Below, in pieces: positions 7,458 to 48,145 of a DNA stretch of 64,000 nucleotides; position 1 is the stretch's first letter, and each line of letters starts with the position of its first letter. The position numbers and the translations under genes were made by a program. The DNA comes from Actibacterium ureilyticum (GTDB lineage: Bacteria; Pseudomonadota; Alphaproteobacteria; Rhodobacterales; Rhodobacteraceae): positions 1-64,000 of the forward strand of contig NZ_NSBT01000020.1 of assembly GCF_002285435.1 (NCBI RefSeq). The letters run 5' to 3'. The notes beneath the pieces were generated by a model. The model was given only the letters and a program-made list of their open reading frames with translations, made no database searches and was not told the DNA's origin.

Positions 7458-7482
7458 GCGTGAAACAGCTTGCCAAATTTCC

Positions 7483-7507
7483 AACCCGCCGCAGTTTGTG
7501 GCGGGTT
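7483..7507 (+). terminator. Hairpin at end of serC-serA operon
   Basis: Perfect 8-bp inverted repeat AACCCGCC (7483-7490) / GGCGGGTT (7500-7507), loop of nine bases, 26 bases after the serA stop. What follows (GTGTCATT) is only weakly T-rich, so termination may be partial. Confidence 0.5.
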
Positions 7508-7530
7508 GTGTCATTCCAGGGGGGCCCTTG

Positions 7531-8271
7531 ATGCGGTTCTATGCCATCGGCGATATTCACGGCCATCTCGACAAGCTGCACGGCGTGCATGACCTGATCG
7601 CGGCCGACCGCCTTGCCACCGGCGACCCCGCCGCGCCCGTGGTGCATCTGGGCGATTTCGCAGATCGCGGCCCCGATGTGCGCGGCGTTCTGGATTTCCT
7701 GATCGACGGGATCGCGGCCGGCCAGCCCTGGATCTGCCTCAAGGGCAACCACGACCGGATGATGGAACACTACCTGCGCAGCCCGGAACAGCCCGACCCG
7801 CTGCGCGACGACCTGCACTGGCTGCAGGACATCATCGGCGGACGCGAGACTCTGGCCTCCTACGGTGTGGACGTGTCGCTTGACCGGAACGAACGGGATA
7901 TTCATGCGGACGCAACCGCGCTGGTGCCGCCCGCACACCGCGCCTTTCTGCAGGCCCTGCCGAACCATCACCATGCGGGCGCGGTCTATTTCTGCCACGC
8001 CGGTATCCGCCCCGGTGTGCCGCTGCCGGATCAGGTCGAGGATGACCTGGTCTGGATCCGCCGCGAGTTTCACGATGCGGCTGATGACCACGGCGCGCTG
8101 ATCGTACATGGCCACACACCGGTCGACAGGGTGACCCATTATGGCAACCGGCTGAACCTGGACACCGGCGCGGCTTACGGCCGTGCGCTGTCGGTCGCGG
8201 TGATCGAGGGGCACGAGGTCGCCCAGCTGACCCCCACCGGACGTAAACCGCTGCCCCCTTCATCTTGGTGA
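7531..8271 (+). CDS. Metallophosphoesterase (serine/threonine phosphatase-like)
   Basis: 246-aa calcineurin-like phosphoesterase. All metal-binding signatures are visible: GDIHGH near residue 8, GDFADRGPD, the GNHD-type KGNHDRMM motif, a late histidine in CHAGIRPG, and VHGHTPV near the C-terminus. This is the small bacterial PP1/PrpE/ApaH-like group that dephosphorylates proteins or dinucleotide polyphosphates; the substrate cannot be decided. AGGGGGG at 7518-7524 precedes ATG 7531. The last codons (SSW, stop) lie inside a Rhodobacteraceae-type intergenic repeat. It converges on tdh. Confidence 0.88.
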   Translation: MRFYAIGDIHGHLDKLHGVHDLIAADRLATGDPAAPVVHLGDFADRGPDVRGVLDFLIDGIAAGQPWICLKGNHDRMMEHYLRSPEQPDPLRDDLHWLQDIIGGRETLASYGVDVSLDRNERDIHADATALVPPAHRAFLQALPNHHHAGAVYFCHAGIRPGVPLPDQVEDDLVWIRREFHDAADDHGALIVHGHTPVDRVTHYGNRLNLDTGAAYGRALSVAVIEGHEVAQLTPTGRKPLPPSSW

Positions 8272-31310: not shown

Positions 31311-32365
31311 TCCTGACCGTTTGCGCCGCCACGGCGGCACAGGCCGACACGTTGCGGGTTGCGACCTTTAACTCCGAATTGTCCCGCAAGGGGCCGGGTG
31401 TGCTGTTGCGCGATATCCGCAAGGGCGACGATCCCCAGATCCTGGCGGTGGTCGATGTGATCGCCGGCGCGCGGCCCGATATTCTGGCGCTGCAGGGTGT
31501 CGATTGGGATCACGACCGCGCGGCGCTCAAGGCGCTGGCGGGCGCCTTGGCCGAGGCGGGGCTGAGCTATCCGCATCTGTTGGCGCTGCGTCCCAACAGC
31601 GGGATGCGCACGGGTCTGGATCACGACGGCGACGGCCGGACCGATGGCTGGCGCGACGCCCAGGGGTTCGGGCGGTTCCCGGGGGCTGAGGGGATGGCGA
31701 TCCTGTCGCGCCACCCGATCGACCGCGACGGGGTTCAGGATTTCAGCGACCTGTTGTGGGCGGATCTGCCGGGCGCGGTGTTGCCGGAACGCGATGGCGC
31801 GCTTTTCCCGTCCCAGGCGGTTTACGCGATCCAGCGGCTGTCATCGGTTGGGCATTGGGCGGTGCCGGTCCGGGTCGGCGACACGCGCCTGACGGTGATG
31901 ACCTTTCACGCCACGCCGCCGGTCTTTGATGGTCCCGAGGATCGCAACGGCCTGCGCAATGCCGCCGAAATCGGGTTGTGGTCGCTGTTTCTGGACGGGG
32001 CGATTCCGGGGGCGGATCCGCCCGACGGTGCCTTTGTCATCATGGGCGATGCCAATCTGGACCCGGTCGATGGCGACGGGCGCAAACCGGCGATCCGGGC
32101 GCTGCTGGCCGACCCCCGGTTGCAGGACCCGCGCCCCGAAAGCGCGGGTGGGCGCGCGCATGCCGATGCCGATCATCGCGGCCCGCCGGAACGCGACACG
32201 GTCGACTGGCCCGATGGTCAGCCCGGCAATCTGCGGGTGGACTATGTCCTGCCCTCGGCCGATCTGCGGGTGCTGGATGCCGGTGTGGTCTGGCCCGAGG
32301 GCGAGAGTGCGGCCAGCCATGCCTCGCGCCACCGGCTGGTCTGGGTCGATATCGCGCTGCCCTAA
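31187..32365 (+). CDS. Exported endonuclease/exonuclease/phosphatase family protein
   Basis: EEP-fold hydrolase. After a signal-like stretch (SLILTVCAATAAQA) the domain runs LRVATFNSEL, ILALQGVDWD (catalytic Glu position shows Gln), GMAILSRHPID, LTVMTFHATPP, VIMGDANLDPVDGDG and a final SRHRLVWVDI, near the catalytic Asp-His end. Substrate may be nucleic acid or a phosphoester. The start is odd: the only ATG in frame is 31187, deep in the upstream gene, giving a 36-aa non-hydrophobic leader; a CTG at 31307 would overlap the upstream TGA as CTGA, like an ATGA coupling. The listed coordinates use the ATG. Converges with the carbamoylase (4-base overlap). Confidence 0.7.
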   Translation: MGASSGKSFHARDRDCPDRRHDPRATPPRRTTTRIGSAASLILTVCAATAAQADTLRVATFNSELSRKGPGVLLRDIRKGDDPQILAVVDVIAGARPDILALQGVDWDHDRAALKALAGALAEAGLSYPHLLALRPNSGMRTGLDHDGDGRTDGWRDAQGFGRFPGAEGMAILSRHPIDRDGVQDFSDLLWADLPGAVLPERDGALFPSQAVYAIQRLSSVGHWAVPVRVGDTRLTVMTFHATPPVFDGPEDRNGLRNAAEIGLWSLFLDGAIPGADPPDGAFVIMGDANLDPVDGDGRKPAIRALLADPRLQDPRPESAGGRAHADADHRGPPERDTVDWPDGQPGNLRVDYVLPSADLRVLDAGVVWPEGESAASHASRHRLVWVDIALP

Positions 32366-33273
32366 CCCTTGGGCGCGGTGATCGGGGCATAGTCCTGCGG
32401 CTCGCGGTGCAGGGCGAAGTTGAAGATGTTGCGCCGAATCTCCTGACAGCGGTCCAGATCGACGGCGGCGGTGATCAGCTCGTCGCCATTGGTCGCGGCG
32501 CGGGCCACGACCTCGCCCGTGGGGGCGACGATGACGCTGCCGCCGATCAGTTCGCTGCCCTCTTCCATCCCGGCCTTGGCGACGGCGACGGCCCACAGAC
32601 CGTTCTGATAGCAGCCCGCCTGGATCGACAGCTCGTTATGGAAATATTGCAGGTGGTCATGTTCGGGCGCCGGGGGGTAATGCAGCGGCGTGTTATAGCC
32701 CAGCATCACCAGCTCGGCCCCGCCCAGCCCCAGAACACGCCAGGTTTCGGGCCAGCGCCGGTCGTTGCAGATGCACATGCCCAGCTTGCCGCCGCGATGA
32801 TCGAATACCGGAAAGCCCAGATCGCCCTTTTCGAAATAGCGTTTCTCCAGATGCTGGAACGGGCGCCAAGGTTCATCCTGGGAATGACCGGGCAGGTGGA
32901 TCTTGCGGTACTTGCCCACGATCTGGCCCGTGTCCGAGACGATGATCGCGGTGTTGAAATGCTGCCCCTCGGGCGTGCGTTCGGCGTAGCCCAGGTGAAA
33001 GCCGATCCTCAGCTCGCGCGCCAGGTCGAACAGCGGGGCGGTATCGGCATTGGGCATCTGGGATTCGAACCAGCGGTCGATTTCGGCCGCATCGGTCATG
33101 TACCAGCGGGGAAAGAACGTGGTCAGCGCCAGCTCCGGAAAGACGACCAGCGCCGCACCCCGGTTTTTCGCCTGGCGCATCAGAGCGCACATGCGCCCCA
33201 CGGCCGAGGCGCGCGGTTCGTCCCGCGCGATGGGGCCCAGTTGCGCGCCCGCGACGATGAATTGCCTGCTCAT
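32362..33273 (-). CDS. N-carbamoyl-D-amino-acid hydrolase (nitrilase superfamily)
   Basis: 303-aa C-N hydrolase of the Agrobacterium D-carbamoylase type, which turns an N-carbamoyl amino acid into the amino acid, CO2 and NH3. The triad is visible: Glu47 (VFPELAL), Lys124 (KYRKIHLPGH) and Cys169 (ICNDRRWPE). The signature HLEKRYFEKGDLGFPV and HNELSIQAGCYQNG also match the family. Length is normal. It is the last gene of the TRAP-dpaL operon, 13 bases behind dpaL, so its natural substrate is probably what the transporter brings in. Confidence 0.88.
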   Translation of the reverse strand: MSRQFIVAGAQLGPIARDEPRASAVGRMCALMRQAKNRGAALVVFPELALTTFFPRWYMTDAAEIDRWFESQMPNADTAPLFDLARELRIGFHLGYAERTPEGQHFNTAIIVSDTGQIVGKYRKIHLPGHSQDEPWRPFQHLEKRYFEKGDLGFPVFDHRGGKLGMCICNDRRWPETWRVLGLGGAELVMLGYNTPLHYPPAPEHDHLQYFHNELSIQAGCYQNGLWAVAVAKAGMEEGSELIGGSVIVAPTGEVVARAATNGDELITAAVDLDRCQEIRRNIFNFALHREPQDYAPITAPKG

Positions 33274-33286
33274 GCTTCTTGTCCTG

Positions 33287-34534
33287 TCATGTGTTGCTGG
33301 CGCGGACCTGAGCCGCCGTCATGCCGACCAGTTCGGTATAAAGGGCGGCATCGGTGTCGCCCTCGGTCCCGAACAGCAGGATCCGCGCGTCGGGGCCCAG
33401 ACCCAGCAGGGCGCACGCATCGGCATCCCGCATCAGCGCGGTGACCCCCGCCAGCCCCGCGACCGCCGATTCCCCGGCGACAATGGCGGGGTCCTGTCCG
33501 GTGGGGCGGGCCAGCCGCCGCATCGCGGCCACGGCGGATGCATCGCTGAGCGCGACAACCGCGTCGGCATGATCGCGCAGGATGGTCCAAGCCAGCTCCG
33601 ACACCTCGCCACAGGCCAGCCCGGCCATCAGCGTGTCCAGATCGCCTTCGACGGCCGTCGGGATGCCCGCCCGGAACGAGGCCAGATAACAGGCCGACTG
33701 GTCGGGATCGCACAGCACGATGGCTGGCCGCTTCGCACCCCAGCGGCGCACCGCCAGCGCCGTGACCGCCGCGGCCATGCCGCCGACGCCGGTCTGCAGA
33801 AAGATATGGGTGGGCGGCTGGTCGATCTGATCGAAAGCCTCGGCCGCCATCAGCTCATAGCCCTGCATCACGTCCTTGGGGATGTCCATATACCCCGCGT
33901 AGGAGGTGTCCGAGACCACGAACCATCCTTCGCGGTCGGCGGTTTCCTGTGCCGCGCGCACGCTGTCGTCATAGTTCCCGTCGCATCGCCGCACCTCGGC
34001 GCCAAAGGCGGCGATGGCCTCTTTGCGGCTGTCGGACACGGTGGCGTGGATGAAGATCACGCAGTTGCAGCCGAAGGTCTGCGCGCCCCAGGCGACGGAC
34101 CGGCCGTGATTGCCATCGGTCGCGCAACAGACGGTGATTTCTGCGGCCAGGTCGGGATGCGCCTTGCCCGTCACCTCGTCCATCGTGACGGGGCGGCCCA
34201 GTTCCCGGCTGAATTCGGCCTGCAGCAGCCGCGCCACCGCATAGGCGCCGCCAAGCGCCTTGAAACTGCCCATCCCGAACCGCCCGCCCTCGTCCTTGTA
34301 GCGCAGCGTGGCCAGGCCCAGTTCTGCCGCCAATGCGGGCAGGTCATGCAACGGTGTGGGGGCATAGCCCGGCCAGCCCGAGATCGTGCCGCTGGCCAGT
34401 GCCAGGTTGGCGTCGTTCAGGATCGCATCCTGCGCGCCCGTCCACGGGTTGGTTTTCGCGGCCCTCGGGTTTGGGCAAAGCGCGTAATTGTCCGTCGAAT
34501 CTGTGCCCGATGCGCGGATGATCTGGCTGGTCAT
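33287..34534 (-). CDS. dpaL: Diaminopropionate ammonia-lyase
   Basis: PLP enzyme converting 2,3-diaminopropionate (both enantiomers) to pyruvate and two ammonia. The 415-aa protein has the fold-type II lysine in GSFKALGG (Lys92), TDGNHGRSVAW, the ammonia-lyase glycine-rich loop GVGGMAAAVTA, and a conserved DNYALCPNPRAA start (N-terminus NYALCPNP) typical of DpaL (E. coli YgeX). Cytoplasmic. It follows dctP by 72 bases with a strong hairpin in between and precedes the carbamoylase. Confidence 0.9.
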   Translation of the reverse strand: MTSQIIRASGTDSTDNYALCPNPRAAKTNPWTGAQDAILNDANLALASGTISGWPGYAPTPLHDLPALAAELGLATLRYKDEGGRFGMGSFKALGGAYAVARLLQAEFSRELGRPVTMDEVTGKAHPDLAAEITVCCATDGNHGRSVAWGAQTFGCNCVIFIHATVSDSRKEAIAAFGAEVRRCDGNYDDSVRAAQETADREGWFVVSDTSYAGYMDIPKDVMQGYELMAAEAFDQIDQPPTHIFLQTGVGGMAAAVTALAVRRWGAKRPAIVLCDPDQSACYLASFRAGIPTAVEGDLDTLMAGLACGEVSELAWTILRDHADAVVALSDASAVAAMRRLARPTGQDPAIVAGESAVAGLAGVTALMRDADACALLGLGPDARILLFGTEGDTDAALYTELVGMTAAQVRASNT

Positions 34535-34570
34535 TGTGTCCTCGAAAGTGATGCCCCGTTCAGGGGCGTT

Positions 34571-34599
34571 GGCCCGGACACGACGAACGCGTCCGGGCC
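34571..34599 (-). repeat. Hairpin between dctP and dpaL
   Basis: Perfect 9-bp inverted repeat GGCCCGGAC (34571-34579) / GTCCGGGCC (34591-34599) with an 11-base loop in the gap after the binding-protein gene. No T-tract on the minus strand. Such hairpins behind solute-binding-protein genes often stabilise the upstream mRNA or reduce downstream expression. Confidence 0.65.
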
Positions 34600-34606
34600 T
34601 TTGATA

Positions 34607-35644
34607 TCAGAAATCGGTCTTTTCTTCGTCGATCGATGCCAGCATCGCATCCAGCATCGCGGTGCCTTCGTCGCCGAACTTTTCGGCGATCAGCGCGCGC
34701 ACGGCGGGTTGTGCGGCCTGGGCGAACTTGGCCTGTTCCTCGGCGGTGACGACGTTCACATCCATCTTGGCCGCCAGCGCCGGCAGCCCCTTGTCCGACG
34801 CTTCGATGACACGGCTCATCGACCGGCCCGCATCGGTGGCCACGTCAGCGGCCCATTTGACCAGGTACTGATCCTCGTCGCTCAGACCGGCCAGGAAATC
34901 GGCGTTCATGGTCCAGATATAGGGCGTGATCAGGTGGTTGGTGATCGACAGGTATTTCTGCACCTCGTCGAACTTGGCAAACGCGATGATCGGCACCGGG
35001 TTCATCTGACCATCGGCCACGCCGGTTTGCAGCGCGGTATAGACCTCGGCCCAGGGAAGGGGGGTCGGCTGGCCGCCCAGCGACGAAATCATCGCCTCGT
35101 GCGTGGGCAGGGTCATGGTGCGGATGCGCTGACCGTCCATATCCGCGACCGAGGTGATGGGCGCCTTGCCCGAGGTAAAGGCAAAGAAGCCACCCGAATC
35201 CAGCAGGCCCAGAACCTCCAGCCCGGTCTTGTCCTCAAGATCGGCAATGAATGTCTCGCCGAAGGTGCTGTCATCGGTGATGACCTTTGACGCGACGCCG
35301 ATATTGGGGAAGGCGAAGGGGATGTCGAAGACCCCGACCAGCGGATAATGCTGCGCCATCCCGCCCGAGGAAGAGATCGTGCTTTCCACCAGGCCCGAAC
35401 GAACCTGGTCGATCACCTCGTTATCCTTGCCAAGCTGGCCATTGGGGAAAAGCTGCACCTCGATCCGGCCGTTCGAGTTGGATTCGACCAGCGATTTGAA
35501 CACCGCCGACATGGCGCCGGAATGGCTGGCGAACGGGTCTTCGGGGTTCAGGTGGGCCAGCCGGATGGTGATATCGGCGGCCTGTGCCTGAACGGCCAGG
35601 CAGATCCCGGCGATGGCAAAAGATGCTTTCCTTATCAATGACAT
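34607..35644 (-). CDS. dctP: TRAP transporter substrate-binding protein DctP
   Basis: 345-aa periplasmic DctP-type binding protein. Signal peptide visible (SLIRKASFAIAGICLAVQAQA, cleaved before ADITIR). Domain features are the IRLAHLNPEDPFASHSGAM start, FPNGQLGKDNEVIDQVRSG, the arginine that in the family binds a carboxylate in GQRIRTMTLP, and PLPWAEVYTALQTGVADGQMNP. It delivers a carboxylate to the DctQM permease. Ligand unknown; the operon suggests a ureido or diamino acid. Confidence 0.92.
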   Translation of the reverse strand: MSLIRKASFAIAGICLAVQAQAADITIRLAHLNPEDPFASHSGAMSAVFKSLVESNSNGRIEVQLFPNGQLGKDNEVIDQVRSGLVESTISSSGGMAQHYPLVGVFDIPFAFPNIGVASKVITDDSTFGETFIADLEDKTGLEVLGLLDSGGFFAFTSGKAPITSVADMDGQRIRTMTLPTHEAMISSLGGQPTPLPWAEVYTALQTGVADGQMNPVPIIAFAKFDEVQKYLSITNHLITPYIWTMNADFLAGLSDEDQYLVKWAADVATDAGRSMSRVIEASDKGLPALAAKMDVNVVTAEEQAKFAQAAQPAVRALIAEKFGDEGTAMLDAMLASIDEEKTDF

Positions 35645-35683
35645 GATATTTCCTCTCCTGTTGGATTTATGGGTGTGCCAGGA

Positions 35684-36970
35684 TCAAAGCCCCAGCAATC
35701 TTGGTATGAAAAGCGTCAGATCGGACCAGAAGGCGATGATGATCAGCACGCCGACCTCGGCCAGGATAAAGGGCCAGAGCTCGCGCGTGATCGCCTCGAC
35801 CTTTTCGCCGGTGACCGAGGCCAGGACGAACAGACAGGCGCCCACCGGTGGCGTCATCAGCGAGATGTTCAGTGCAAGGATGATCATGATGCCCGCGTGC
35901 ACCGGCTCCATCCCGATCTGCACGGTCAGCGGCGCCAGCACCGGGGCCAGGATGATCAGCGTGGCATTGATGTCCATGACCAGCCCGATCAGCAGCAGCA
36001 GGATCAGGATCAGGCCGATGATCACCTGCGGGTTGTCCGACACCGACAGCAACCCGGTGGCAATGGCCTGCGGGATGCGGTTGAACGTCATCCACCAGCC
36101 CAGGATCGAGGCCGAGGCGATGATCAGGAAGATGACCCCGGTGATGCGCGTCGTGCGCACCGCGATTTGGTACAGGTCACGCCAGCTGAGTGCGCGATAG
36201 ATCACCCCGCCCACGAACAGCGCATAGGCAACCGCGATGGCCGCGGCCTCGGTCGGGGTGGCGATGCCGCCCAGGATCGAGCCCAGGATGAACACCGGCA
36301 GCAGCGCGGCCAGAAACCCCTCGCGCAGCGCGGCCCAAACGGTGCAGAGCGACGGGCGCCCCTGGCCCTTCGGCAGGTTCTTGCGCCGTGCGGTCAGGGC
36401 GATCACCCCCATGCACAGGCCGCAGATCAGCAGCCCCGGCAGGATACCCGCCGCGAAAAGCCCCGCGATAGAGACACCCATGATCGAGCCATAGATGATC
36501 GCCAGCGTCGATGGCGGGATGGTCGGGCCGATGATCGACCCGGCGGCGGTGACGGCGGCGGCATAGGGGCGGGAATAGCCCGCCTTTTGCATCGCCGGGA
36601 CCAGCGTGTTGCCGAACGCCGCCGCATCGGCGGTGGCCGACCCGGTGATGCCCGCGAACATGACGCTGGCCACCATGTTGGAATGGGCCATGCCGCCCCG
36701 CATCCAGCCCACCAGCGCATCGGCCAGCTTCACCAGACCCTGGGTGATGCCGGAGCGGTTCATGATCTCGCCCGCCAGGATGAAGAACGGCATGGCCAGG
36801 AACGGGAACAGGTCCAGCCCGGCAAACACCCGGTCCGGCGCCATCTGCATGAAGCGCGGCCCCATATCCAGAATGCCGACCACGCCCGCAACGCCAATGG
36901 CGAACCCCACCGGCATGCCCAGGGCCATCAGCCCGAAAAACGCGATCGCCACCAACAGTGCGCCCATCAA
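35684..36970 (-). CDS. dctM: TRAP transporter large permease DctM
   Basis: 428-aa membrane protein with about 12 hydrophobic segments, driven by a Na+ or H+ gradient. The DctM features are clear: FALAMPVGFAIG-like start (ALGMPVGFAIGVAGVVGI), PFFILAGEIMNRSG, the central IIGPTIPPSTLAIIYG repeat and TPPVGACLFV near the C-terminus. It overlaps dctQ by four bases. Standard length. Confidence 0.94.
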   Translation of the reverse strand: MMGALLVAIAFFGLMALGMPVGFAIGVAGVVGILDMGPRFMQMAPDRVFAGLDLFPFLAMPFFILAGEIMNRSGITQGLVKLADALVGWMRGGMAHSNMVASVMFAGITGSATADAAAFGNTLVPAMQKAGYSRPYAAAVTAAGSIIGPTIPPSTLAIIYGSIMGVSIAGLFAAGILPGLLICGLCMGVIALTARRKNLPKGQGRPSLCTVWAALREGFLAALLPVFILGSILGGIATPTEAAAIAVAYALFVGGVIYRALSWRDLYQIAVRTTRITGVIFLIIASASILGWWMTFNRIPQAIATGLLSVSDNPQVIIGLILILLLLIGLVMDINATLIILAPVLAPLTVQIGMEPVHAGIMIILALNISLMTPPVGACLFVLASVTGEKVEAITRELWPFILAEVGVLIIIAFWSDLTLFIPRLLGL

Positions 36971-37500
36971 TCGTCCCCCGGTTTCGCGATGGTGGCCCCG
37001 GTGCGGGCCGGGGCGCGTTCGGCAAAGAAATCATGCAGCCCGATCAGGAACAGCTGCACACAGGCCATCGCGGCGGCCAGTGGCACGCCCATGAACGGAT
37101 AGCCCTTGGGCATGGCATAGATCATCGTCAGGCGCGAAAAGCCTTTGGCTGCGAAGCCGATCCCATAGAAGAAGAGCGCAAAGAAGAAGGCGAAGGCGAT
37201 CACGTCGAACGCCACCGCCAGCCAGCGCCGCACCGGACCCGGCAGGCGCGAGAATACGAAGTCCACCCCGATATGCTCGCGATGCGCGATCCCCGACGAC
37301 ACCGCCAGCAGCGCCATCCAGATCATCAGGTACCGCGCCAGTTCCTCGGTAAATGTCAGCGGCAGCGGGATGACATAGCGCACCAGAACGCCCAGCCACA
37401 CATCCAGCACCAGCACCGCCAGAAGCAGCACACAGACGCGCTCGACCAGCCAGTTGACGCGCTGGCTCCATCTTTTGGCCTTGTCTGCAATCGCCGTCAC
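36967..37500 (-). CDS. dctQ: TRAP transporter small permease DctQ
   Basis: 177-aa membrane protein with four helices (VCVLLLAVLVLDVWLGVLVR, LMIWMALLAVSSG, FFFALFFYGIGF and MGVPLAAAMACVQLFLIG), the small partner of DctM. Contains the EELARYLMIWM motif typical of DctQ. I chose GTG at 37500 (TAIADKAKRW) with GGAAGA upstream; no ATG exists in frame close by. It is the first gene of the minus-strand catabolic operon and faces rpiR at 37603 across 102 bases holding two operator-like palindromes. Confidence 0.85.
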   Translation of the reverse strand: MTAIADKAKRWSQRVNWLVERVCVLLLAVLVLDVWLGVLVRYVIPLPLTFTEELARYLMIWMALLAVSSGIAHREHIGVDFVFSRLPGPVRRWLAVAFDVIAFAFFFALFFYGIGFAAKGFSRLTMIYAMPKGYPFMGVPLAAAMACVQLFLIGLHDFFAERAPARTGATIAKPGDD

Positions 37501-37602: not shown

Positions 37603-38463
37603 ATGCCACAAAAAGCAGCAGAAACGGGCCGTGTCGCCATGACAAGGCGCATTCACAAGGCCTATGCGGGCCTGTCCGATGGCGAGCGCCGGGTCGCGGA
37701 TGCGATTCTGGACAGCCCGGCGGAACTGGCGGTGTTCGCGGCCTCGGAACTGGCGGAGCAGGCGGGCGTGTCGAATGCCACGGTCAGCCGGTTCTTTCGC
37801 CGGCTGGGCTATGCCAATTTCGACGAGGCGCGGCAAGAGGCCCGGCGGATGCGCGCCACCGGCTCGCCGCTTTATACCGGCGCGGGCGGGGCGGACCGGG
37901 CCGATCCCATATCCGTTCTGGCCGCGCAAGAGGCGCAGTCGATCGACGCCACCCTGTCGCGGCTGAACCCGTTGGCGCTGCGCGAGATCGGCGCCGCCAT
38001 CGCCAAGGCACCGCGCATCCGCACGCTGGGCTTTCGCAACAGCCATTTCCTGGCGCAATACATCACCGCGCAGCTGGCGCAGATGCGGGCGGGTGTGGCG
38101 CCGATGCTGTTGCCCGGCCAGACCCGGGCCGAAGGGGTTTCGGCGCTGGAACCCGGCGATCTGGCGATCATCGTCGGGCTGCGCCGGCGTCCGCGCGATT
38201 TCGTTCAGACCGTGGATGCGGTCGCCGCGCAGGGCGCGCAGATCGTCCTGCTGGCCGATCAGACCATCCGCGCCGCCCCGGCCCGCGCGACATGGACGCT
38301 GGATTGCGTGGTCGACACACCGCAATTCGCCGATTCCTATGCCGGGGCGATGTCGGTCCTGCGCCTGTTGACGATCGAGGCCCACCGCGCCCTGGGCGAC
38401 CGGGGTCAGAAATACCTGGAGCGGGTCGAGAACCTGCGCGATGCGATGGACGAGCTGGAATAG
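37603..38463 (+). CDS. RpiR/MurR family transcriptional regulator (TRAP operon side)
   Basis: 286-aa regulator with an N-terminal winged/HTH_6 domain (LAEQAGVSNATVSRFFRRLGYANF, in the form ELAEQAGVSNATVSRFFRRL) and a C-terminal SIS sugar-isomerase-like domain (residues about 130-260, with ALEPGDLAIIVGLRRR and IVLLADQTI). SIS-type regulators sense phosphorylated or small polar effectors. It is divergent from the dctQ-dctM-dctP-dpaL-carbamoylase operon and is the likely controller. Converges on the second RpiR gene with a 6-base gap. Confidence 0.88.
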   Translation: MPQKAAETGRVAMTRRIHKAYAGLSDGERRVADAILDSPAELAVFAASELAEQAGVSNATVSRFFRRLGYANFDEARQEARRMRATGSPLYTGAGGADRADPISVLAAQEAQSIDATLSRLNPLALREIGAAIAKAPRIRTLGFRNSHFLAQYITAQLAQMRAGVAPMLLPGQTRAEGVSALEPGDLAIIVGLRRRPRDFVQTVDAVAAQGAQIVLLADQTIRAAPARATWTLDCVVDTPQFADSYAGAMSVLRLLTIEAHRALGDRGQKYLERVENLRDAMDELE

Positions 38464-38469
38464 AGCCGT

Positions 38470-39324
38470 TCAGCTGCGCCCGAACAGACCCGTGGCGCCG
38501 ATCATCTTTTCCATCTCGCGGATGCGGCGGGCGCTGTCATCGGCGTTGCGTTTCTGGATCTCGGCGATCAGCGACTCGACCAGGAAATTCAGCGCCATGG
38601 TCGAATCCCAGCTCGAGGGTGCCTCGACCATGGCGCGGAAACAGTGATCGGCGATGCGTTCGATGGGCGAGCCCCATTGATCGGTGAACAGCACGATCCG
38701 CGCCCCGCGCTCGGCCGCCAGCGCGGCCAGATGCGCCATCTGCTTTTCGTAGCGCCGAATGTCGAAAATGATCAGGACGGCGTTGCGGTCCATGTCCAGC
38801 ACGGTCTGCGGCCACAGGTTCTGCGAGCTGCTGACAAGCTGGACCCGGGGGCGGATGATTTGCAGGTGATGGGCCAGGTATTGCGCCAGCGGCCCGGTGA
38901 TCCGCCCGCCGATCAGATGCAGCGCGCGGTCGGGATCGCCCAGCAGCTTCGCCGCCGCGTCGAAAGCCGCGAAATCCAGCTGGCCGATGGTCTGGTTGAT
39001 GTTCTGCACCGCTTTTTCGGCAAAACGGGTGACAATATGGCCGCTTTGATCGTCGGGCAGTTCGGCCTCGAGCTTGGCCAGAGGTTGCTTGATGCGCTCG
39101 GCCAGTTCGGCGCGGATGGCGGTTTGCAGGTCGGCAAAGCCGTCGAACCCCAGCTTGCGCGCCAGACGGATCACGGTGGGGGTCGACACGTTGGCGGCAT
39201 CGGCCAGCTTGGTGATCGATTGCAGCTCGATCGCGCGCGCGTCGTCTTTCAGGAACGGCACGATCCGGCGCTCGGCTGGGGTGAAATCGGCTTTGTGTTT
39301 GTCGACACGGTCGCGGACACGCAT
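38470..39324 (-). CDS. RpiR/MurR family transcriptional regulator (glutamylation operon side)
   Basis: 284-aa regulator. HTH_6 domain in residues about 10-80 (ITKLADAANVSTPTVIRLARKLGF) and SIS domain in about 110-260 (ALHLIGGRITGPLAQYLAHHL and AVLIIFDIRRYEKQM, IVLFTDQWGSP). ATG 39324 is used; the frame extends 31 codons upstream through the operator region. It is divergent from the N-formylglutamate amidohydrolase/GS-like operon starting at 39449. It is not a close copy of the neighbouring RpiR, so it likely senses a different effector. Confidence 0.88.
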   Translation of the reverse strand: MRVRDRVDKHKADFTPAERRIVPFLKDDARAIELQSITKLADAANVSTPTVIRLARKLGFDGFADLQTAIRAELAERIKQPLAKLEAELPDDQSGHIVTRFAEKAVQNINQTIGQLDFAAFDAAAKLLGDPDRALHLIGGRITGPLAQYLAHHLQIIRPRVQLVSSSQNLWPQTVLDMDRNAVLIIFDIRRYEKQMAHLAALAAERGARIVLFTDQWGSPIERIADHCFRAMVEAPSSWDSTMALNFLVESLIAEIQKRNADDSARRIREMEKMIGATGLFGRS

Positions 39325-39390: not shown

Positions 39391-39448
39391 TTCTTGACCC
39401 GCGCCGTGGCTCTGCAATCTTCGGTGCAGGACGAAGGAAAGGGTGGGG

Positions 39449-40222
39449 ATGACACAGGCCTGGTCACCGGTGGTATTCTACCGCACCGGCGGGGACGCGC
39501 CGGTGGTGCTGGTCTGTGAACATGCCAGCGCGGCGATCCCCGAAGCGTTCGGCGGTCTGGGACTCATCGCGGATGCGGCGGTGTCGCATGCGGCCTGGGA
39601 CATTGGTGCGCTGGATGTGGCGCGGGGCCTGGCCGATGCGCTGGATGCGCCGCTGGTCGCGGGCGGGGTGTCGCGGCTTTTGTATGATTGCAACCGCCCG
39701 CCCACCGCGCCCGACTGTATCCTGCCCCGAAGCGAGGTGTTCGCGGTGCCCGGCAATGCCGATCTGGATGCGGCGGCGCGGTTGCAGCGGCAGACACTGA
39801 TCCATGACGTGTTTCATGGCGCGGTTCAGGGGCTGATCGCGGCCCAGGCGGCCCGAACCGGCGGGCCGGTTGCCCTGATCACCGTTCACAGTTTCACGCC
39901 GGTCTATCACGGGCAGCGCCGGGCGGTCGAAATCGGCTTTCTGCATGATGCGGACCCCGCGCTCAGCATTGCCGCGCAGCGGATCGAGGCCGCGCGGGGC
40001 CGCTATCGCGCGGAGCTGAACGCGCCCTATGATGCGACCGATGGGGTGACCTATTCGCTGGCCCGCCATGCCGGGGCGGCGGGTCTGCCCACCACGATGA
40101 TCGAAATTCGGAACGACCTGATCGACACACCCGAAAGCGCCGAAGCGATGGCGGCGCATCTGGCCGATACGCTGTCACAGGCGCTGGCCGCGATTGCCGC
40201 GCCCGCCGGGGCGCAACGATGA
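39449..40222 (+). CDS. N-formylglutamate amidohydrolase family (HutG-like)
   Basis: 257-aa zinc amidohydrolase. The family motif set is present: CEHASAAIP near residue 26, GGVSRLLYDCNR, ITVHSFTPVYHG and TMIEIRNDLI. HutG-type enzymes cleave N-formylglutamate, but relatives hydrolyse other N-acyl or gamma-glutamyl amides. No hut genes are near, and it heads an operon with a glutamine synthetase-like ligase, which points to gamma-glutamyl amide chemistry instead of histidine catabolism. ATG 39449 has AAGGA upstream; GTG 39443 is an alternative. Confidence 0.85.
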   Translation: MTQAWSPVVFYRTGGDAPVVLVCEHASAAIPEAFGGLGLIADAAVSHAAWDIGALDVARGLADALDAPLVAGGVSRLLYDCNRPPTAPDCILPRSEVFAVPGNADLDAAARLQRQTLIHDVFHGAVQGLIAAQAARTGGPVALITVHSFTPVYHGQRRAVEIGFLHDADPALSIAAQRIEAARGRYRAELNAPYDATDGVTYSLARHAGAAGLPTTMIEIRNDLIDTPESAEAMAAHLADTLSQALAAIAAPAGAQR

Positions 40223-40252
40223 CACAGGCCGCTCACAACCCAAGAGGTGCCC

Positions 40253-41602
40253 ATGACATATGACGAGTTGAAAGCGCAGATCGCCAAGGGCGCGGTCGAC
40301 ACGGTTCTGGCCTGTATCATCGACATGCAGGGCCGGCTGATGGGCAAACGCTTCCATGCCGAGGCGTTCCTGGAGGTGGCCGAGGGCGAGACGCATTGCT
40401 GCAACTACCTGTTGGCCACGGATCTGGAGATGGCGACGCCCGATGGCTATGCCTCGACCAGTTGGGAGCGGGGCTATGGCGACTATGTGATGAAGCCCGA
40501 CCTGAGCACCCTGCGCCCGGTCCCGTGGCTGGAGGGCACGGCGATGTGCCTGTGCGATATCCTGGACCATCACAGCCACGACCCGATCCCCTTTGCCCCG
40601 CGCCAGTTGCTGAAGGCACAGATCGCGCGTGCGCAGGCGATGGGGCTGACCCCGGTGACCGCGACCGAATTGGAGTTCTTTCTGTTTCAGGGCACCCATG
40701 ACGAGATCGCGCGTGGCGGTTTCGATCTGAAGCCGATCTCGAACTATAACGAGGATTATCACATCCTTCAGACCTCGAAAGAGGAATACGTGATGCGCCC
40801 GATCCGCAACCATCTGCGCAAGATGGGGGTGCCGGTCGAAGGGTCGAAGGGCGAGGCCGAGGCCGGTCAGGAAGAGCTGAACATCAAATATGCCGATGCG
40901 CTGGCCACCGCCGATCACCACACGCTGGCCAAGCACGGGATCAAGGAAATCGCGCATCAGCACGGGGTCGCGGCCAGCTTCCTGCCGAAATGGCACCAGT
41001 CCCGCGTGGGCAGCGCCGCCCATGTGCACCAGTCGCTGTGGCAGGACGGCGCGAATGCCTTTTTTGACCCCGACCGGCCGCTGGGGAAATCGGCGCTGAT
41101 GGACCACTACATCGCCGGGCTGCTGAAATACGCGGCCGAATACACCTATTTCCTGGCGCCCTATATCAACAGCTACAAGCGGTTCGCCAAGGGCACCTTT
41201 GCGCCCACGCAGATCGTCTGGTCGGTCGACAACCGCACGGCGGCGTTCCGGCTGTGTGGCGATGGTACCCGGGCCGTGCGGATCGAATGTCGCCTGCCGG
41301 GGGCGGACATGAACCCCTATCTGGCGACGGCGGCGATGCTGGCGGCAGGGCTTCAGGGGATCGCCGAAAAGCTGCCGCTGCCCGCGCCGTTTTCCGGCGA
41401 CGCCTATGCCGACGACGCCGACCGCCATGTGCCGCGCACCCTGCGCGACGCGCGCGCGGCGCTTCTGGGGTCCGAGATGCTGACAGAAGCTTTCGGGGCC
41501 GAGGCCGTCGCCCACTACGCCCGCGCGGCGGAATGGGAAATCGAAGAGTTCAACCGTGTCGTCACCGACTATGAAATTGCCAGAGGATTTGAAAAAGCAT
41601 GA
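40253..41602 (+). CDS. Glutamine synthetase-family gamma-glutamyl ligase
   Basis: 449-aa glutamine synthetase homologue of the GlnT/PuuA-like group, shorter at the N-terminus than GlnA and without the tyrosine adenylylation site. Catalytic features present: ELEFFLFQ (metal Glu), SAAHVHQSL (His for metal/ATP), NRTAAFRLCGDGTRAVRIECRLPGAD split as NRTAAFRL and RIECRLPGAD. Such proteins ligate glutamate to amines (polyamines, ethanolamine, isopropylamine) and seldom make glutamine. GAGGTG precedes ATG 40253. Its stop overlaps the aldehyde dehydrogenase start (ATGA). Confidence 0.85.
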   Translation: MTYDELKAQIAKGAVDTVLACIIDMQGRLMGKRFHAEAFLEVAEGETHCCNYLLATDLEMATPDGYASTSWERGYGDYVMKPDLSTLRPVPWLEGTAMCLCDILDHHSHDPIPFAPRQLLKAQIARAQAMGLTPVTATELEFFLFQGTHDEIARGGFDLKPISNYNEDYHILQTSKEEYVMRPIRNHLRKMGVPVEGSKGEAEAGQEELNIKYADALATADHHTLAKHGIKEIAHQHGVAASFLPKWHQSRVGSAAHVHQSLWQDGANAFFDPDRPLGKSALMDHYIAGLLKYAAEYTYFLAPYINSYKRFAKGTFAPTQIVWSVDNRTAAFRLCGDGTRAVRIECRLPGADMNPYLATAAMLAAGLQGIAEKLPLPAPFSGDAYADDADRHVPRTLRDARAALLGSEMLTEAFGAEAVAHYARAAEWEIEEFNRVVTDYEIARGFEKA

Positions 41603-42978
41603 GCCTGTTGCGCTGTATCTCGCCCATTGACGGGTCGGTCTTTGCCGAACGCGCGGCTTTGGACATCCCCGCCGCCCGCGACCGCATCGCGGCGGCCCGC
41701 ACCGCCCAGGCGGACTGGGCCGCGCGCCCGCTGGCCGACCGCATCGCGCTGGTCATGGCCGGGGTGGCCGCCGTGGGGGCGCTGAACGATGAAATCGTGC
41801 CGGAACTGGCCCAGATGATGGGCCGCCCGGTGCGCTATGGCGGGGAATTTGGCGGTTTCAACGAACGCGCCAGCCACATGGCCGCCATCGCCGAAGACGC
41901 CCTGGCCCCCATCGAGGTGGGCGAGGACGCGACATTCAAACGCATGATCAAGCGGGTGCCGCATGGCGTGGTGCTGGTCGTGGCGCCGTGGAATTACCCC
42001 TATATGACGGCGATCAACACGGTGGCCCCGGCGCTGATCGCGGGCAACACCGTGGTGCTGAAACACGCGACCCAGACGCTGCTGGTGGGGGAACGGATGG
42101 CCGATGCGTTCCATTCGGCGGGCGTGCCGGCGGATGTGTTCCAGAACCTGTTCCTGGATCACGGCACCACCACCGACCTGATTGCGGAAAACGCGTTCGA
42201 CTTCGTCAACTTCACCGGCTCGGTCGGCGGCGGGGCCGCGATGGAGCGCGCGGCGGCGGGCACTTTCACCGGCGTTGGGACCGAGCTGGGCGGCAAGGAT
42301 CCCGGCTATGTGATGGAGGATGCCGATCTGGACGCGGCGGTCGAAACGCTGATCGACGGGGCGATGTTCAACTCGGGCCAGTGCTGCTGCGGGATCGAAC
42401 GGATCTATGTGCATGAAAGCCTGTTCGACGATTTCGTCGCGAAAGCGGTCGCGATCGTCAAAGGCTACAAGCTGGGCAATCCGCTGGACCCCGAAACCAC
42501 GCTGGGCCCGATGGCGCATGTGCGTTTCGCGGCCGAGGTGCGCGCCCAGATCGACGAGGCGCTGGCGATGGGCGCCACGGCCCATATCGACACCTTCGCC
42601 GAGGATGACGGCGGCGCCTATCTGTCGCCGCAGATCCTGACAGGGGTCACGCATGACATGCGCGTGATGCGCGACGAAAGCTTCGGCCCCGTCGTGGGCA
42701 TCATGCCGGTCAAGGACGATGACGAGGCCATCGCGCTGATGAATGACAGCGAATTCGGCTTGACCGCCAGCCTGTGGACCCGCGACATCGACCGCGCCAT
42801 CGCCGTGGGCGACCGGATCGAGACCGGCACCGTCTTCATGAACCGGGCCGATTACCTGGACCCGGGGCTGTGCTGGACCGGGTGCAAGAATACCGGGCGC
42901 GGCGGCGGCTTGTCTGTCATCGGCTATCAGAACCTGACGCGGCCCAAATCCTATCATCTGAAAAAGGTTACCTCATGA
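41599..42978 (+). CDS. NAD(P)-dependent aldehyde dehydrogenase
   Basis: 459-aa ALDH. The oxyanion Asn is in VVAPWNYPY (Asn132), the base Glu229 in GVGTELGGKD, and the catalytic cysteine is in NSGQCCCGIE (residues 262-264, three cysteines in a row, an uncommon variant). C-terminal GRGGGLSVIGYQNLTRPK is normal. It overlaps the upstream and downstream genes by four bases each. By context it oxidises the aldehyde produced by the neighbouring alcohol dehydrogenase. Confidence 0.92.
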   Translation: MSLLRCISPIDGSVFAERAALDIPAARDRIAAARTAQADWAARPLADRIALVMAGVAAVGALNDEIVPELAQMMGRPVRYGGEFGGFNERASHMAAIAEDALAPIEVGEDATFKRMIKRVPHGVVLVVAPWNYPYMTAINTVAPALIAGNTVVLKHATQTLLVGERMADAFHSAGVPADVFQNLFLDHGTTTDLIAENAFDFVNFTGSVGGGAAMERAAAGTFTGVGTELGGKDPGYVMEDADLDAAVETLIDGAMFNSGQCCCGIERIYVHESLFDDFVAKAVAIVKGYKLGNPLDPETTLGPMAHVRFAAEVRAQIDEALAMGATAHIDTFAEDDGGAYLSPQILTGVTHDMRVMRDESFGPVVGIMPVKDDDEAIALMNDSEFGLTASLWTRDIDRAIAVGDRIETGTVFMNRADYLDPGLCWTGCKNTGRGGGLSVIGYQNLTRPKSYHLKKVTS

Positions 42979-44120
42979 CACTCGTTGGAAACTGGTCCTA
43001 TCCGACCGCGATCAAGTTCGGCGCCGGGCGCATTGCCGAACTGGCCCAGGCCTGTGCGCAGGCGGGGATTTCCAAGCCGCTGCTGATCACCGACCGGGGG
43101 CTGGCACCGTTGCCGGTGACGGAAACCGCGCTGGCGGTGATCGACGGCGCCGGGCTGGGGCGGGCGATCTTTTGCGATGTCGATCCGAACCCGACCGAGA
43201 TCAACCTGGAAGCCGGGATCGCCGCCTACAAGGCTGGCGGGCATGACGGGGTGATCGCCTTTGGCGGGGGCTCGGGTCTGGATCTGGCGAAGATGGTGGC
43301 CTTTATGGTCGGACAGACGCGGCCGGTCTGGGATTTCGAGGATATCGGCGATTGGTGGACCCGTGCCGATGCCGATGCCATCGCCCCCATCGTGGCGGTG
43401 CCGACCACCGCCGGAACCGGGTCCGAGGTCGGTCGCGCCGCCGTTCTGACCAATTCGGTCACGCAGGAAAAGAAGATCATCTTTCATCCCAAGGTGCTGC
43501 CTGCGGTGGTGATCTGTGACCCGGACCTGACCGTGGGCATGCCGCCCGCGATCACGGCAGGCACGGGGCTGGATGCCTTTGCCCATTGCGTCGAGGCGTT
43601 TTCCAGCCCGTTCTATCACCCGATGAGCCAGGGCATCGCGCTGGAAGGGATGCGGCTGGTGATCGACTATTTGCCGCGCGCTTATGCCGATGGGTCGGAT
43701 ATCGAGGCGCGGGCCCAGATGATGTCGGCCGCGTTGATGGGCGCGACCGCGTTCCAGAAGGGGCTGGGCGCGATCCACTCGCTGAGCCACCCCATCGGCG
43801 CGATCCATCACACCCATCACGGCACGACGAACGCGGTTTGCATGCCCGCGGTGCTGAAGCTGAACGCCCCGGCGATCCGCGACCGGTTCGACCGCGCAGC
43901 GGGTTATCTGGGGATTTCGGGCGGGTTCGACGGGTTCTGCGATTTCGTCGGCGGGTTCAACGATGGGCTGGGCATCCCGAAACGGCTGAGCGGGCTGGGT
44001 GTGACCGACCCCGATATCGACAAGCTGGTCGCAGGCGCGCTGAAGGATCCCAGCTGCGGCGGCAACCCGGTCGAGCTGACGGCCGAGAATCTGCGCGCGC
44101 TGTACGAAGCCGTTTTGTAA
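42975..44120 (+). CDS. Iron-containing alcohol dehydrogenase
   Basis: 381-aa group III (Fe-dependent) alcohol dehydrogenase. Cofactor loop is FGGGSGLDLAKM; metal ligands are in TAGTGSEV-type region, AGTGLDAFAHCVEAF, GAIHSLSHPIGAIHHTHHG and NAVCMPAVL. Oxidises a primary alcohol with NAD+ in the cytoplasm. Its ATG overlaps the ALDH stop (ATGA). A GC-rich hairpin follows. Last gene of the operon. Confidence 0.93.
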   Translation: MTLVGNWSYPTAIKFGAGRIAELAQACAQAGISKPLLITDRGLAPLPVTETALAVIDGAGLGRAIFCDVDPNPTEINLEAGIAAYKAGGHDGVIAFGGGSGLDLAKMVAFMVGQTRPVWDFEDIGDWWTRADADAIAPIVAVPTTAGTGSEVGRAAVLTNSVTQEKKIIFHPKVLPAVVICDPDLTVGMPPAITAGTGLDAFAHCVEAFSSPFYHPMSQGIALEGMRLVIDYLPRAYADGSDIEARAQMMSAALMGATAFQKGLGAIHSLSHPIGAIHHTHHGTTNAVCMPAVLKLNAPAIRDRFDRAAGYLGISGGFDGFCDFVGGFNDGLGIPKRLSGLGVTDPDIDKLVAGALKDPSCGGNPVELTAENLRALYEAVL

Positions 44121-44383: not shown

Positions 44384-44551
44384 ATGATGTTGAGCAACGA
44401 GACCTCGGTCGGGATCAGATGCGGCGAGGGCCTGCCGGTGCATGACGCCACCGCGCTGACCGAAGGCGGCGATCTGGCGCGGATCCGGCTTCAGGATCAG
44501 CTGTACACCCTGCGGATCACCCGCGCGGGCAAGCTGATCCTGACGAAGTGA
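44384..44551 (+). CDS. hemP: Hemin uptake protein HemP
   Basis: 55-aa cytoplasmic small protein, usually first gene of iron/heme operons and involved in activating heme receptor genes in related bacteria. The C-terminal signature QLYTLRITRAGKLILTK is characteristic of HemP. GAAGGAG (44371-44377) is six bases before ATG 44384; the upstream ATG 44369 is too early for this. It sits directly behind the iron box, so iron repression is expected. Confidence 0.85.
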   Translation: MMLSNETSVGIRCGEGLPVHDATALTEGGDLARIRLQDQLYTLRITRAGKLILTK

Positions 44552-44628
44552 GCCCGGCCCAGACATATCGCGCCCGCACGCGGGACCGCGACACCGACAC
44601 ACCATCACGCAAAAGGAAGAACGACGCG

Positions 44629-45900
44629 ATGAAATACCGGACCCTTGCCACGAGTGCTGTGGCCTTTTGTCTCGGCACCGCAGCCATGGCCCAGGACGAT
44701 GTCAGCAAGGCGGCGGTCCTTGAGACCTATGCCGATATTGCCGCGGCGAAATACGAAGACAGCCTGATCACCGCGCAGCGCCTGCAGGCGGCGGTCGACG
44801 CGCTGGTTGCAACCCCGTCGGCCCAGGCGCTGGCGGCGGCGAAATCGGCCTGGCTGGCGGCGCGCGTGCCCTATCAGCAGACCGAGGTGTACCGGTTCGG
44901 CAACGCCATCGTCGACGATTGGGAAGGCAAGGTGAACGCCTGGCCGCTGGACGAGGGGCTGATTGATTACGTCGATGCCAGCTATGGCGGGGCGACCGAT
45001 GAAAACGCGGCGGCGGTTCTGAACGTGATCGCGCACCCGACCTTTACCCTGTCAGGCGCCGAGGTCGACGCGACCGAGATCACGCCCGCCCTTCTGGAAG
45101 AGACCCTGCAAGAGGCCGACGGGGTCGAGGCGAATGTCGCGACCGGCTATCACGCCATCGAATTCCTGCTGTGGGGTCAGGACCTGAACGGTCACGGCGC
45201 CGGGGCCGGCAGCCGGTCCTGGACCGATTATGCCCAGGGCGAGGCTTGCACCGGGGGCAATTGCGACCGGCGCGGCGCCTATCTGAAGGCGGCGGCCGAT
45301 CTGCTGGTGTCGGATCTGGGATTCATGACCGCCCAATGGCAGGACGGCGGCGATGCGCGTGCCGAGGTGATGGCCGACGAGAACGCGGGTATCGTGGCGA
45401 TCCTGACCGGCATGGGCTCTTTGTCCTATGGCGAGCAGGCGGGCGAACGGATGCGCCTGGGCCTGATGCTGAACGACCCCGAGGAAGAGCATGACTGTTT
45501 CTCGGACAACACCCATAACAGCCATTACTATGACGGGCTGGGCATCCAGAACGTGTATCTGGGCGAATATGTCCGGGTCGACGGGTCGCTGGTTTCGGGG
45601 CCGTCGCTGTCGGATCTGGTCGCGGCCAAAGACGCCGCGCTGGACGCCGAGATGACCGGCAAGCTGTCCACCACCATGATGGCGCTGGGCCGGATCAAGA
45701 CCGCGGCCGAAGCCGGGTTCAGCTATGACATGATGCTGGAACGCGGCAATGCCGGTGGCGAGGCGCTGGTCATGGGCGGTGTGAACGGGCTGATCGATCA
45801 GACCCGCAGCATCGAACGTGTGGTGTCCGCACTGGGCGTCGATGCCATCGCCTTCGAAGGGTCCGACAGCCTGGATAATCCCGACGCCGTCTTCCAGTAA
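44629..45900 (+). CDS. Imelysin-family iron-regulated periplasmic protein
   Basis: 423-aa secreted protein of the imelysin (ICMP) family linked to iron uptake. Signal peptide is clear (KYRTLATSAVAFCLGTAAMA). The family motif GxHxxE is present in TGYHAIEFLLWGQDL, and DDCFSDNTHNSHYYDG-like region EEHDCFSDNTHNSHYYDG is a second conserved block. AAAAGGAAG precedes ATG 44629. First structural gene after hemP. Confidence 0.9.
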   Translation: MKYRTLATSAVAFCLGTAAMAQDDVSKAAVLETYADIAAAKYEDSLITAQRLQAAVDALVATPSAQALAAAKSAWLAARVPYQQTEVYRFGNAIVDDWEGKVNAWPLDEGLIDYVDASYGGATDENAAAVLNVIAHPTFTLSGAEVDATEITPALLEETLQEADGVEANVATGYHAIEFLLWGQDLNGHGAGAGSRSWTDYAQGEACTGGNCDRRGAYLKAAADLLVSDLGFMTAQWQDGGDARAEVMADENAGIVAILTGMGSLSYGEQAGERMRLGLMLNDPEEEHDCFSDNTHNSHYYDGLGIQNVYLGEYVRVDGSLVSGPSLSDLVAAKDAALDAEMTGKLSTTMMALGRIKTAAEAGFSYDMMLERGNAGGEALVMGGVNGLIDQTRSIERVVSALGVDAIAFEGSDSLDNPDAVFQ

Positions 45901-45920
45901 ACAACCAAGGGTTCGCTGCC

Positions 45921-46172
45921 ATGATCGTCTGTCACTGTCAGAATATCACCGATCAGGATATCCATTCCGCTATTGACTGGATGCGGGCAGCGGACCCTGA
46001 TACCCTTATCACGCCCGGTAAGATCTATCGGGCGTTGGGAAAAACCGCCGATTGCGGCGGTTGTGTGCCGCTGTTTCTTGGAACCATGCGTCAGAACCCC
46101 AGCCTCGAAGTGCCCATGCACCTCCGCAATCTGCGCGGAGCTACACAGGAAAACAGAAATGCAAGGCGATAG
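45921..46172 (+). CDS. bfd: Bacterioferritin-associated ferredoxin Bfd
   Basis: 83-aa [2Fe-2S] protein that hands electrons to bacterioferritin to release stored iron. Cys4 and Cys6 (VCHCQNI) plus Cys45 and Cys48 (ADCGGCVP) form the cluster ligands. Twenty bases after the imelysin gene; overlaps bfr by 14 bases. Confidence 0.92.
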
Positions 46173-46644
46173 CAAAGTCATCGATTACCTCAACCGGGCG
46201 TTGCGCAGTGAACTGACCGCGATCAGCCAGTACTGGCTGCACTTCAAGCTTCAGGAAGACTGGGGCCTGGGCCACATGGCCAAGAAAAGCCGCGAGGAAA
46301 GCATCGAAGAGATGAACCACGCGGACAAGCTGATGGAACGGATCATCTTCCTGGAAGGCCATCCCAACCTGCAGAAGCTGGACCCGCTGCGGATCGGCCA
46401 GACCCCGCGCGAAACGCTGGAGTGCGATTTGGCCGCAGAGCAGGAAGCGCGCGCCTTGTATAAAGAGGCACGGGAATACTGTAACGAGGTCGGTGACCAC
46501 GTCACGAAGGATCTGTTCGACGAGCTTCTGACCGACGAAGAAGGCCATATCGACTTCCTCGAGACACAACTTGATTTGCACGATCGTGTGGGTGCAGAGA
46601 ACTATGCGCAGCTTAACGCTTCGAAAATGGACGAGGCCGAGTAA
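46159..46644 (+). CDS. bfr: Bacterioferritin
   Basis: 161-aa iron-storage cage subunit. Ferroxidase ligands visible in [29 protein letters not shown] (EMNH motif with the axial heme methionine of Bfr, residue 52-type) and [12 protein letters not shown]. Starts in the bfd tail and overlaps the next gene by 41 bases, an unusually long overlap. Co-expression with Bfd makes a matched store-and-release pair. Confidence 0.94.
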
Positions 46645-48145
46645 CCTCGGACTGCTGGCCCTGGTGGCCGGAACCACGGCGATCGCTGCGCCTCTGGAAG
46701 AACCACATCTGAACATCGTGCCACGCACAGACGCGGAAGCCGCCCGTATCGCGGCGGTGACCGCCCTGGCCGACAGTTTCGATGCGCCGCAGAAATTCGA
46801 AGAGATGTCTGCTGGCGCGGCGACGGTGCGGGTCACACCGGATGCCAACGCGTTTTCGCAGCCATCGGGCAACATCACCTTTCAGGACGAGCTGGACTTC
46901 AAGGTCGGCAACGGGCTGTTCCGCAAGCTGTGGGTGTCGTCGCCGTCATCCACGCTGGCCTCGGACGGGCTGGGGCCGCTTTACAATGCGCGGTCCTGTC
47001 AGCGCTGCCACATCAAGGACGGCCGCGGCCACCCGCCCGAAAGCGCCGATGACAACGCGATTTCGATGTTCATGCGGGTGTCGATCCCCGGCGGTCCCGA
47101 CGATGGCATTGCCGAGATCGAGGGGTATCTGGCAACGCTGCCCGACCCGACCTATGGCAAGCAGCTGCAGGATTTCAGCCTGGCCGGTCATCCGGCGGAA
47201 TACCGGCTTCAGATCGATTATGACGAGGTCGCGGTGCCGCTGTCGGGCGGGCAGGTCGCGCATCTGCGCGCGCCCACCTATACCGCCGCCGATCTGGGCT
47301 ATGGCCCGCTGCATCCCGATGCGATGCTCAGCCCCCGGATCGCGCCGCAGATGATCGGGCTGGGCCTGCTCGAGGCGGTACCGGCCGCCGATATCCTGGC
47401 GCTGGCCGATCCCGACGATGCCGATGGCGACGGGATTTCGGGCCGTCCCAACGTGGTCTGGTCGGTCGAATTCGATCAGCCGATGCTGGGCCGGTTCGGT
47501 CTGAAGGCCGGATCGCCCACGGTGCGCCACCAATCGGCGGGCGCGTTTTCCGGGGATATCGGGATCTCGAACCCCTATTTCCCGAATGGCTGGGGCGAGT
47601 GCACCGCGTCCGAAGCCGCCTGCCGCGCCGCGCCGCATGGCGATGGCGATGACCGCACGTTCGAGATCGACGCCGAAGGGCTGGATCTGGTGACCTTCTA
47701 CAGCCGCAACCTGGGCGTACCGGCCCGCCGCGACGTGGACGACGCGCAGGTTCTGCACGGCAAAGAGGTGTTCTATACCACCGGCTGCACATCCTGCCAC
47801 AATCCGAAATTCGTGACCCACCGGCTGAACGACCAGCCAGAGCAGAGCTTTCAGCTGATCTGGCCCTATACCGACATGCTGCTGCATGACATGGGGCCCG
47901 GGCTGGCCGACAACCGCCCCGAGGCGCGCGCGACCGGCACCGAATGGCGCACCCCGCCGCTGTGGGGGATCGGCTTGACGGAACAGGTTTCGGGCCACAC
48001 CTATTTCCTGCATGACGGGCGGGCGCGCTCGATCCTCGAAGCGATCCTGTGGCATGGCGGCGAGGCCCAGCCGCATCGCGACGCGGTGGTCGAAATGCCG
48101 CCCGAAGACCGCAACGCGCTGCTGCGTTTTCTGGAGAGCTTGTAA
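46604..48145 (+). CDS. Di-heme c-type oxidoreductase (DHOR, COG3488)
   Basis: 513-aa exported protein. Signal-like start ([14 protein letters not shown]) then two heme-c sites, CQRCH (Cys132) and CTSCH (Cys395). The region [20 protein letters not shown]-like ([13 protein letters not shown]) and [12 protein letters not shown] match the 'thiol oxidoreductase' DHOR family that recurs with imelysins. Its ATG is inside bfr. Probably a periplasmic ferric reductase or redox partner for iron uptake; not proven. Confidence 0.85.

Follow-up and report, generated by a model that had tools for sequence, protein, structure and literature searches.

A predicted ethanolamine gamma-glutamyl catabolic operon without its TRAP importer in Actibacterium ureilyticum

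What is the substrate of a compact operon that pairs a ligase of the glutamine synthetase (GS) family with two dehydrogenases and an amidohydrolase? The question arises in a 64,000-nucleotide stretch of contig NZ_NSBT01000020.1 of Actibacterium ureilyticum (the window), where a first-pass annotation had picked out four tightly coupled genes at 39449–44120. Open reading frames and Pfam matches bear out the coordinates and the families (Table 1), although the genes do not run in the order in which they were first listed (ligase, alcohol dehydrogenase (ADH), aldehyde dehydrogenase (ALDH), amidohydrolase) but as amidohydrolase, ligase, ALDH and ADH. All four ORFs are intact, uninterrupted and co-directional on the forward strand, with a 4-base stop/start overlap at both the GS/ALDH and the ALDH/ADH junctions and a gap of 30 bases between the amidohydrolase, a member of the FGase family, and the ligase; these last two genes have alternative GTG starts at 39443 and 40247, respectively. 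The pN/pS ratios of 0.17–0.28 for the GS, ALDH and ADH genes indicate clear purifying selection, and those of the FGase gene (0.40–0.75) a weaker one. Since the same gene order is kept in dozens of genomes, it is not a product of chance.

Table 1. Coordinates of the operon and its upstream region in the window.
Feature	Coordinates	Strand	Evidence
RpiR/MurR-family regulator (HTH_6 + SIS)	38470–39324	-	PF01418 4e-17, PF01380 3e-20
Candidate operator, perfect inverted repeat TTCTACAC-N12-GTGTAGAA	39349–39376		RpiR/FGase intergenic region
Candidate -35 box TTGACC of operon promoter	39394–39399	+	Place matches the TTGACA-like box of relatives
FGase-family amidohydrolase, predicted gamma-glutamylglycine amidohydrolase (GGAH)	39449–40222	+	PF05013, E 3e-38
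Empty slot where EtoV-EtoW-EtoX (ethanolamine TRAP) stand in most relatives	40220–40252	+	Sequence reading
GS-family ligase, predicted ethanolamine gamma-glutamylase	40253–41602	+	PF00120, E 6e-99
ALDH, predicted gamma-glutamyl-aminoacetaldehyde dehydrogenase	41599–42978	+	PF00171, E 4e-111
Iron ADH, predicted gamma-glutamylethanolamide dehydrogenase	42975–44120	+	PF00465 3e-46, PF25137 1e-39

The locus is very probably an ethanolamine gamma-glutamyl catabolic operon. The corresponding pathway proposed for Chromohalobacter salexigens has been tabulated as PF00120, PF00465, PF00171 and PF05013 (PMC9397018), and all four families occur together in the window operon. The GS-family ligase would join glutamate and ethanolamine at the cost of ATP to give gamma-glutamylethanolamide, which the iron ADH would oxidise to the aldehyde and the ALDH further to gamma-glutamylglycine; the FGase-family enzyme would then hydrolyse the latter to glycine and glutamate, so that glutamate would be recycled and glycine would supply carbon and nitrogen. 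We infer each of these reactions, ethanolamine as their substrate, and the regulation of the operon; gene content and order, the orthology to EtoX-linked operons, the conserved active-site and family-invariant residues, and the lack of EtoX, EutB, EutH and an above-cut-off Eat permease in the genome are direct observations. Streptomyces GlnA4 glutamylates ethanolamine in vitro, and the same three later steps have been proposed there (PMC6529630). In Phaeobacter sp. MED193, phosphorylethanolamine raises the levels of the pathway proteins, and EtoX, the TRAP binding protein, has a Kd of 7.9 uM for ethanolamine (PMC10132767). The scheme of glutamylation, oxidation and hydrolysis put forward in the first-pass annotation matches this published ethanolamine scheme in the same four families, and the window genes are close orthologues of the published operon genes. 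Because the pathway is already published (PMC9397018, PMC6529630, PMC10132767), that proposal was a correct rediscovery, and what is new is the genome in which the pathway is found. The first-pass annotation did not remark on the absence of the ethanolamine TRAP genes from their usual place inside the operon.

The ligase was used to scan genome contigs, and 80 loci were kept. The standard layout among these relatives is a reverse-strand RpiR gene followed by FGase, TRAP genes, GS, ALDH and Fe-ADH. EtoX is found in 60 of the 80 loci; GS, ALDH and Fe-ADH are all present in 70, and 56 of these 70 have EtoX as well. Some of the 80 loci lie on short contigs, so true absences are fewer than these counts suggest. 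Paracoccus homiensis (L014) has the complete layout, with identities to the window of 60% for FGase, 83% for GS, 84% for ALDH and 85% for ADH, and its TRAP binding protein, encoded between FGase and ligase, matches 4uab with 627 bits, the next match being at 63 bits. The 4UAB structure is that of Csal_0678 with bound ethanolamine (PMC12410723). Among 61 related genomes, that of the window included, 18 have a strong ligase together with EtoX, five (again including that of the window) have the ligase only, and four have EtoX only.

Positions conserved at 97% or more across the 56 EtoX-linked operons were taken as near-invariant, and the window keeps 192 of 192 of them in the ligase, 219 of 219 in the ALDH, 161 of 163 in the iron ADH and 46 of 46 in the FGase. 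The best PDB match of the ligase is 5dm3 (684 bits), which we take to be Csal_0679 of C. salexigens. The ligase is about 82–83% identical to that of the EtoX-bearing P. homiensis operon, and in a quick tree it is the sister of this ligase (support 98) and nested inside the EtoX-linked ligases. The ALDH carries the catalytic ELGGK and GQCC motifs, the iron ADH has the metal-site motifs DAFAH, IHSLSH, HHTHH and GGGS, and the FGase contains CEHAS and HSFTP motifs and matches PDB 2odf with 208 bits. The FGase (45–60% identical to its relatives) and the RpiR regulator are the least conserved members of the operon.

The divergent regulator likely starts at ATG 39324, a longer TTG ORF reaching 39417. 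An RpiR homologue, 38–68% identical, occupies the same divergent place in 60 of the 80 loci, and the regulator probably controls the operon. The inverted repeat between the two genes, a candidate operator, is the single match of its pattern in the 64 kb, against 0 expected for a pattern picked after the sequence was seen. In the equivalent upstream regions of relatives, ATTGACA is present in 33 of 61, where 1.5 would be expected.

The operon of Phaeobacter sp. MED193 (MED193_10021–10056), a related alphaproteobacterium, consists of RpiR, GGAH, EtoVWX, ETAGA, GAADDH and GETADH (PMC10132767) and shares with the window the enzyme families, the gene order and the divergent RpiR-type regulator, but in the window the space between the amidohydrolase and ligase genes holds no EtoV, EtoW or EtoX, and no EtoX occurs elsewhere in the genome either. 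The Csal_0678/0679 region has the same four Pfam families and a clearly orthologous ligase, whereas C. salexigens is gammaproteobacterial and has the TRAP binding protein whose ethanolamine-bound structure is 4UAB. The GlnA4 cluster of Streptomyces coelicolor (SCO1611–SCO1615) has the same proposed chemistry, and GlnA4 shares with the window ligase the replacement of the ammonium-flap Glu (E327 position) by Phe; this distant organism has, however, a different regulator (EpuRI), and its first dehydrogenase is of the short-chain type according to a figure legend (PMC6529630).

The loss of the importer is the sole unusual point of the operon, and a mild oddity. EtoVWX is absent in and near the operon, which is so for a minority of the loci, the importer being common and not universal. 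In the 99.9% complete genome no EtoX was found, the best match being 30% identical (91 bits), and this lineage has most likely lost the importer. A replacement by EutH or by an Eat permease was rejected: EutH had no match in the genome, and the best Eat match reached 43 bits against a cut-off of 382. The adjacent TRAP system (34607–37471, reverse strand) was likewise discarded, its binding protein being 25% identical to EtoX, and 4uab is not among the best 60 PDB matches of this protein. It has an Arg where EtoX has Phe (GQRIRTM versus GKRVFTF in an ungapped comparison by eye; MAFFT places gaps there). An Arg at that position in TRAP binding proteins marks carboxylate ligands and is lacking in Csal_0678. 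From its sequence, the adjacent TRAP looks like an ordinary carboxylate-type system, and its genes cluster with a gene of the diaminopropionate-ammonia-lyase family. At 32362–37471 on the reverse strand, the TRAP genes are followed by this lyase-family gene (493 bits against a cut-off of 276) and by a carbon-nitrogen hydrolase, and an RpiR regulator at 37603–38463 diverges from them; the cluster probably imports and degrades an amino acid derivative. Downstream of the operon, imelysin (M75 peptidase), ferritin-like and di-haem oxidoreductase genes at 44548–48145 suggest an iron-related cluster unrelated to it.

The FGase start (39449–39460) carries a 12-base sequence, ATGACACAGGCC, that recurs across the FGase stop codon (40219–40230), where relatives begin their TRAP genes. 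It is possibly a trace of the TRAP deletion, or due to chance. As a deletion scar it was set aside: the dctQ starts of relatives are unlike the sequence after the second copy, and the repeat may be coincidental. Ethanolamine would now have to cross the membrane by diffusion or through a different carrier, or else be set free within the cell. There is a small but real chance that the operon at present serves a salvage or repurposed pathway, acting on ethanolamine freed in the cell from phospholipid headgroups or on another amino alcohol.

Other readings of the cluster have to be weighed against ethanolamine catabolism. It is scarcely credible that the cluster forms no pathway, with the ligase acting as an ordinary glutamine synthetase or the FGase as an ordinary HutG. 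Such a reading draws on names that go to family level only; against it, the gene order is conserved among relatives, and the ligase scores 235.5 and 246.7 bits with the type I and type III GS models, below their curated cut-offs of 429 and 470, and has GTFAP where the genome's own GlnA has GFEAP, so that a type I/III assignment was rejected. The D50 position is uninformative, since it is Asp in the window yet Gly or Pro in relatives. A typical GS sits elsewhere in the genome (C30:384745, 443 bits). The first-pass annotation had argued against a plain HutG from the lack of histidine-utilisation genes nearby, and this holds: no hut genes lie near the operon, and hutH (C18:274871–276367), elsewhere in the genome, adjoins another FGase-family gene (276412–277068), one of the genome's four FGases, for which reason HutG was rejected as the identity of the operon FGase. 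A pathway for putrescine (PuuABCD) or isopropylamine (Ipu) is only slightly less improbable. Gamma-glutamylation logic is common to both, and E. coli PuuABCD likewise gamma-glutamylates, oxidises and hydrolyses, but it acts on putrescine with an FAD amine oxidase and a class I amidotransferase-type hydrolase instead of an Fe-ADH and an FGase. The four window genes include neither a PuuB-like oxidase nor a PuuD-like hydrolase, and the ADH suits alcohol oxidation and not amine oxidation. The ligase reaches 203 bits with the gamma-glutamylputrescine synthetase model (GGputSyn; cut-off 650), and the ALDH 195 with the PuuC model (cut-off 850). The Eut ethanolamine ammonia-lyase pathway was dismissed, EutB (PF06751) having no match in the genome.

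The same chemistry could also have passed, after the loss of EtoX, to another amino alcohol such as alaninol, serinol or 3-aminopropanol, taken up by another transporter and yielding alanine, serine or beta-alanine. The lack of EtoVWX in the operon and of EtoX in the genome would fit this, and many GS-like ligases are promiscuous. The operon has no alternative transporter, however; its ligase retains every residue that is near-invariant in EtoX-linked ligases and is nested among them in the tree, and other EtoX-less loci, including some that sit on short contigs, retain the same enzymes, all of which makes such a switch improbable. Ethanolamine is the likely substrate because of the orthology to EtoX-linked operons, the invariant residues kept and the HutG and GlnA candidates elsewhere. 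The first-pass annotation had left the choice between ethanolamine giving glycine and alaninol giving alanine; the evidence favours the former.

Five EtoX-less loci (L049:2248–11975, L063:2–5550, L069:4735–11956, L075:2998–16852 and L087:1791–11883) combine the ethanolamine enzymes with an inositol-monophosphatase-family gene and variously with a Na/Pi cotransporter+PhoU gene, a DeoR regulator, a sulfatase/phosphodiesterase-family gene and an ABC importer. The L087 binding protein has as its best PDB matches 8x1a, 4r72–4r75 and, in addition, a pyridoxal-phosphate binder. The module looks like one for uptake of the intact phosphorylated headgroup and its dephosphorylation in the cell, a possibility left open in previous work (PMC10132767). 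It has no clear counterpart in the window genome, where the binding protein matched at 26% identity (42 bits) and the phosphatase at 37%. ORFs 54–55% identical to the L069 Na/Pi-cotransporter gene lie directly upstream of the ligase in L053, L078 and L089 (each at 6211–7923) and in L039 (6250–7935), loci that retain EtoX; their position beside the ligase would tie phosphate handling to ethanolamine use.

The enzymes of the pathway can persist without the EtoX importer, and for this reason surveys counting etoX alone would miss such genomes, which make up five of the 23 ligase-bearing ones in the sample, that of the window among them. The locus very probably represents the described route by which bacteria, and notably marine alphaproteobacteria, recycle ethanolamine headgroups from membrane lipids with no need of the Eut microcompartment.
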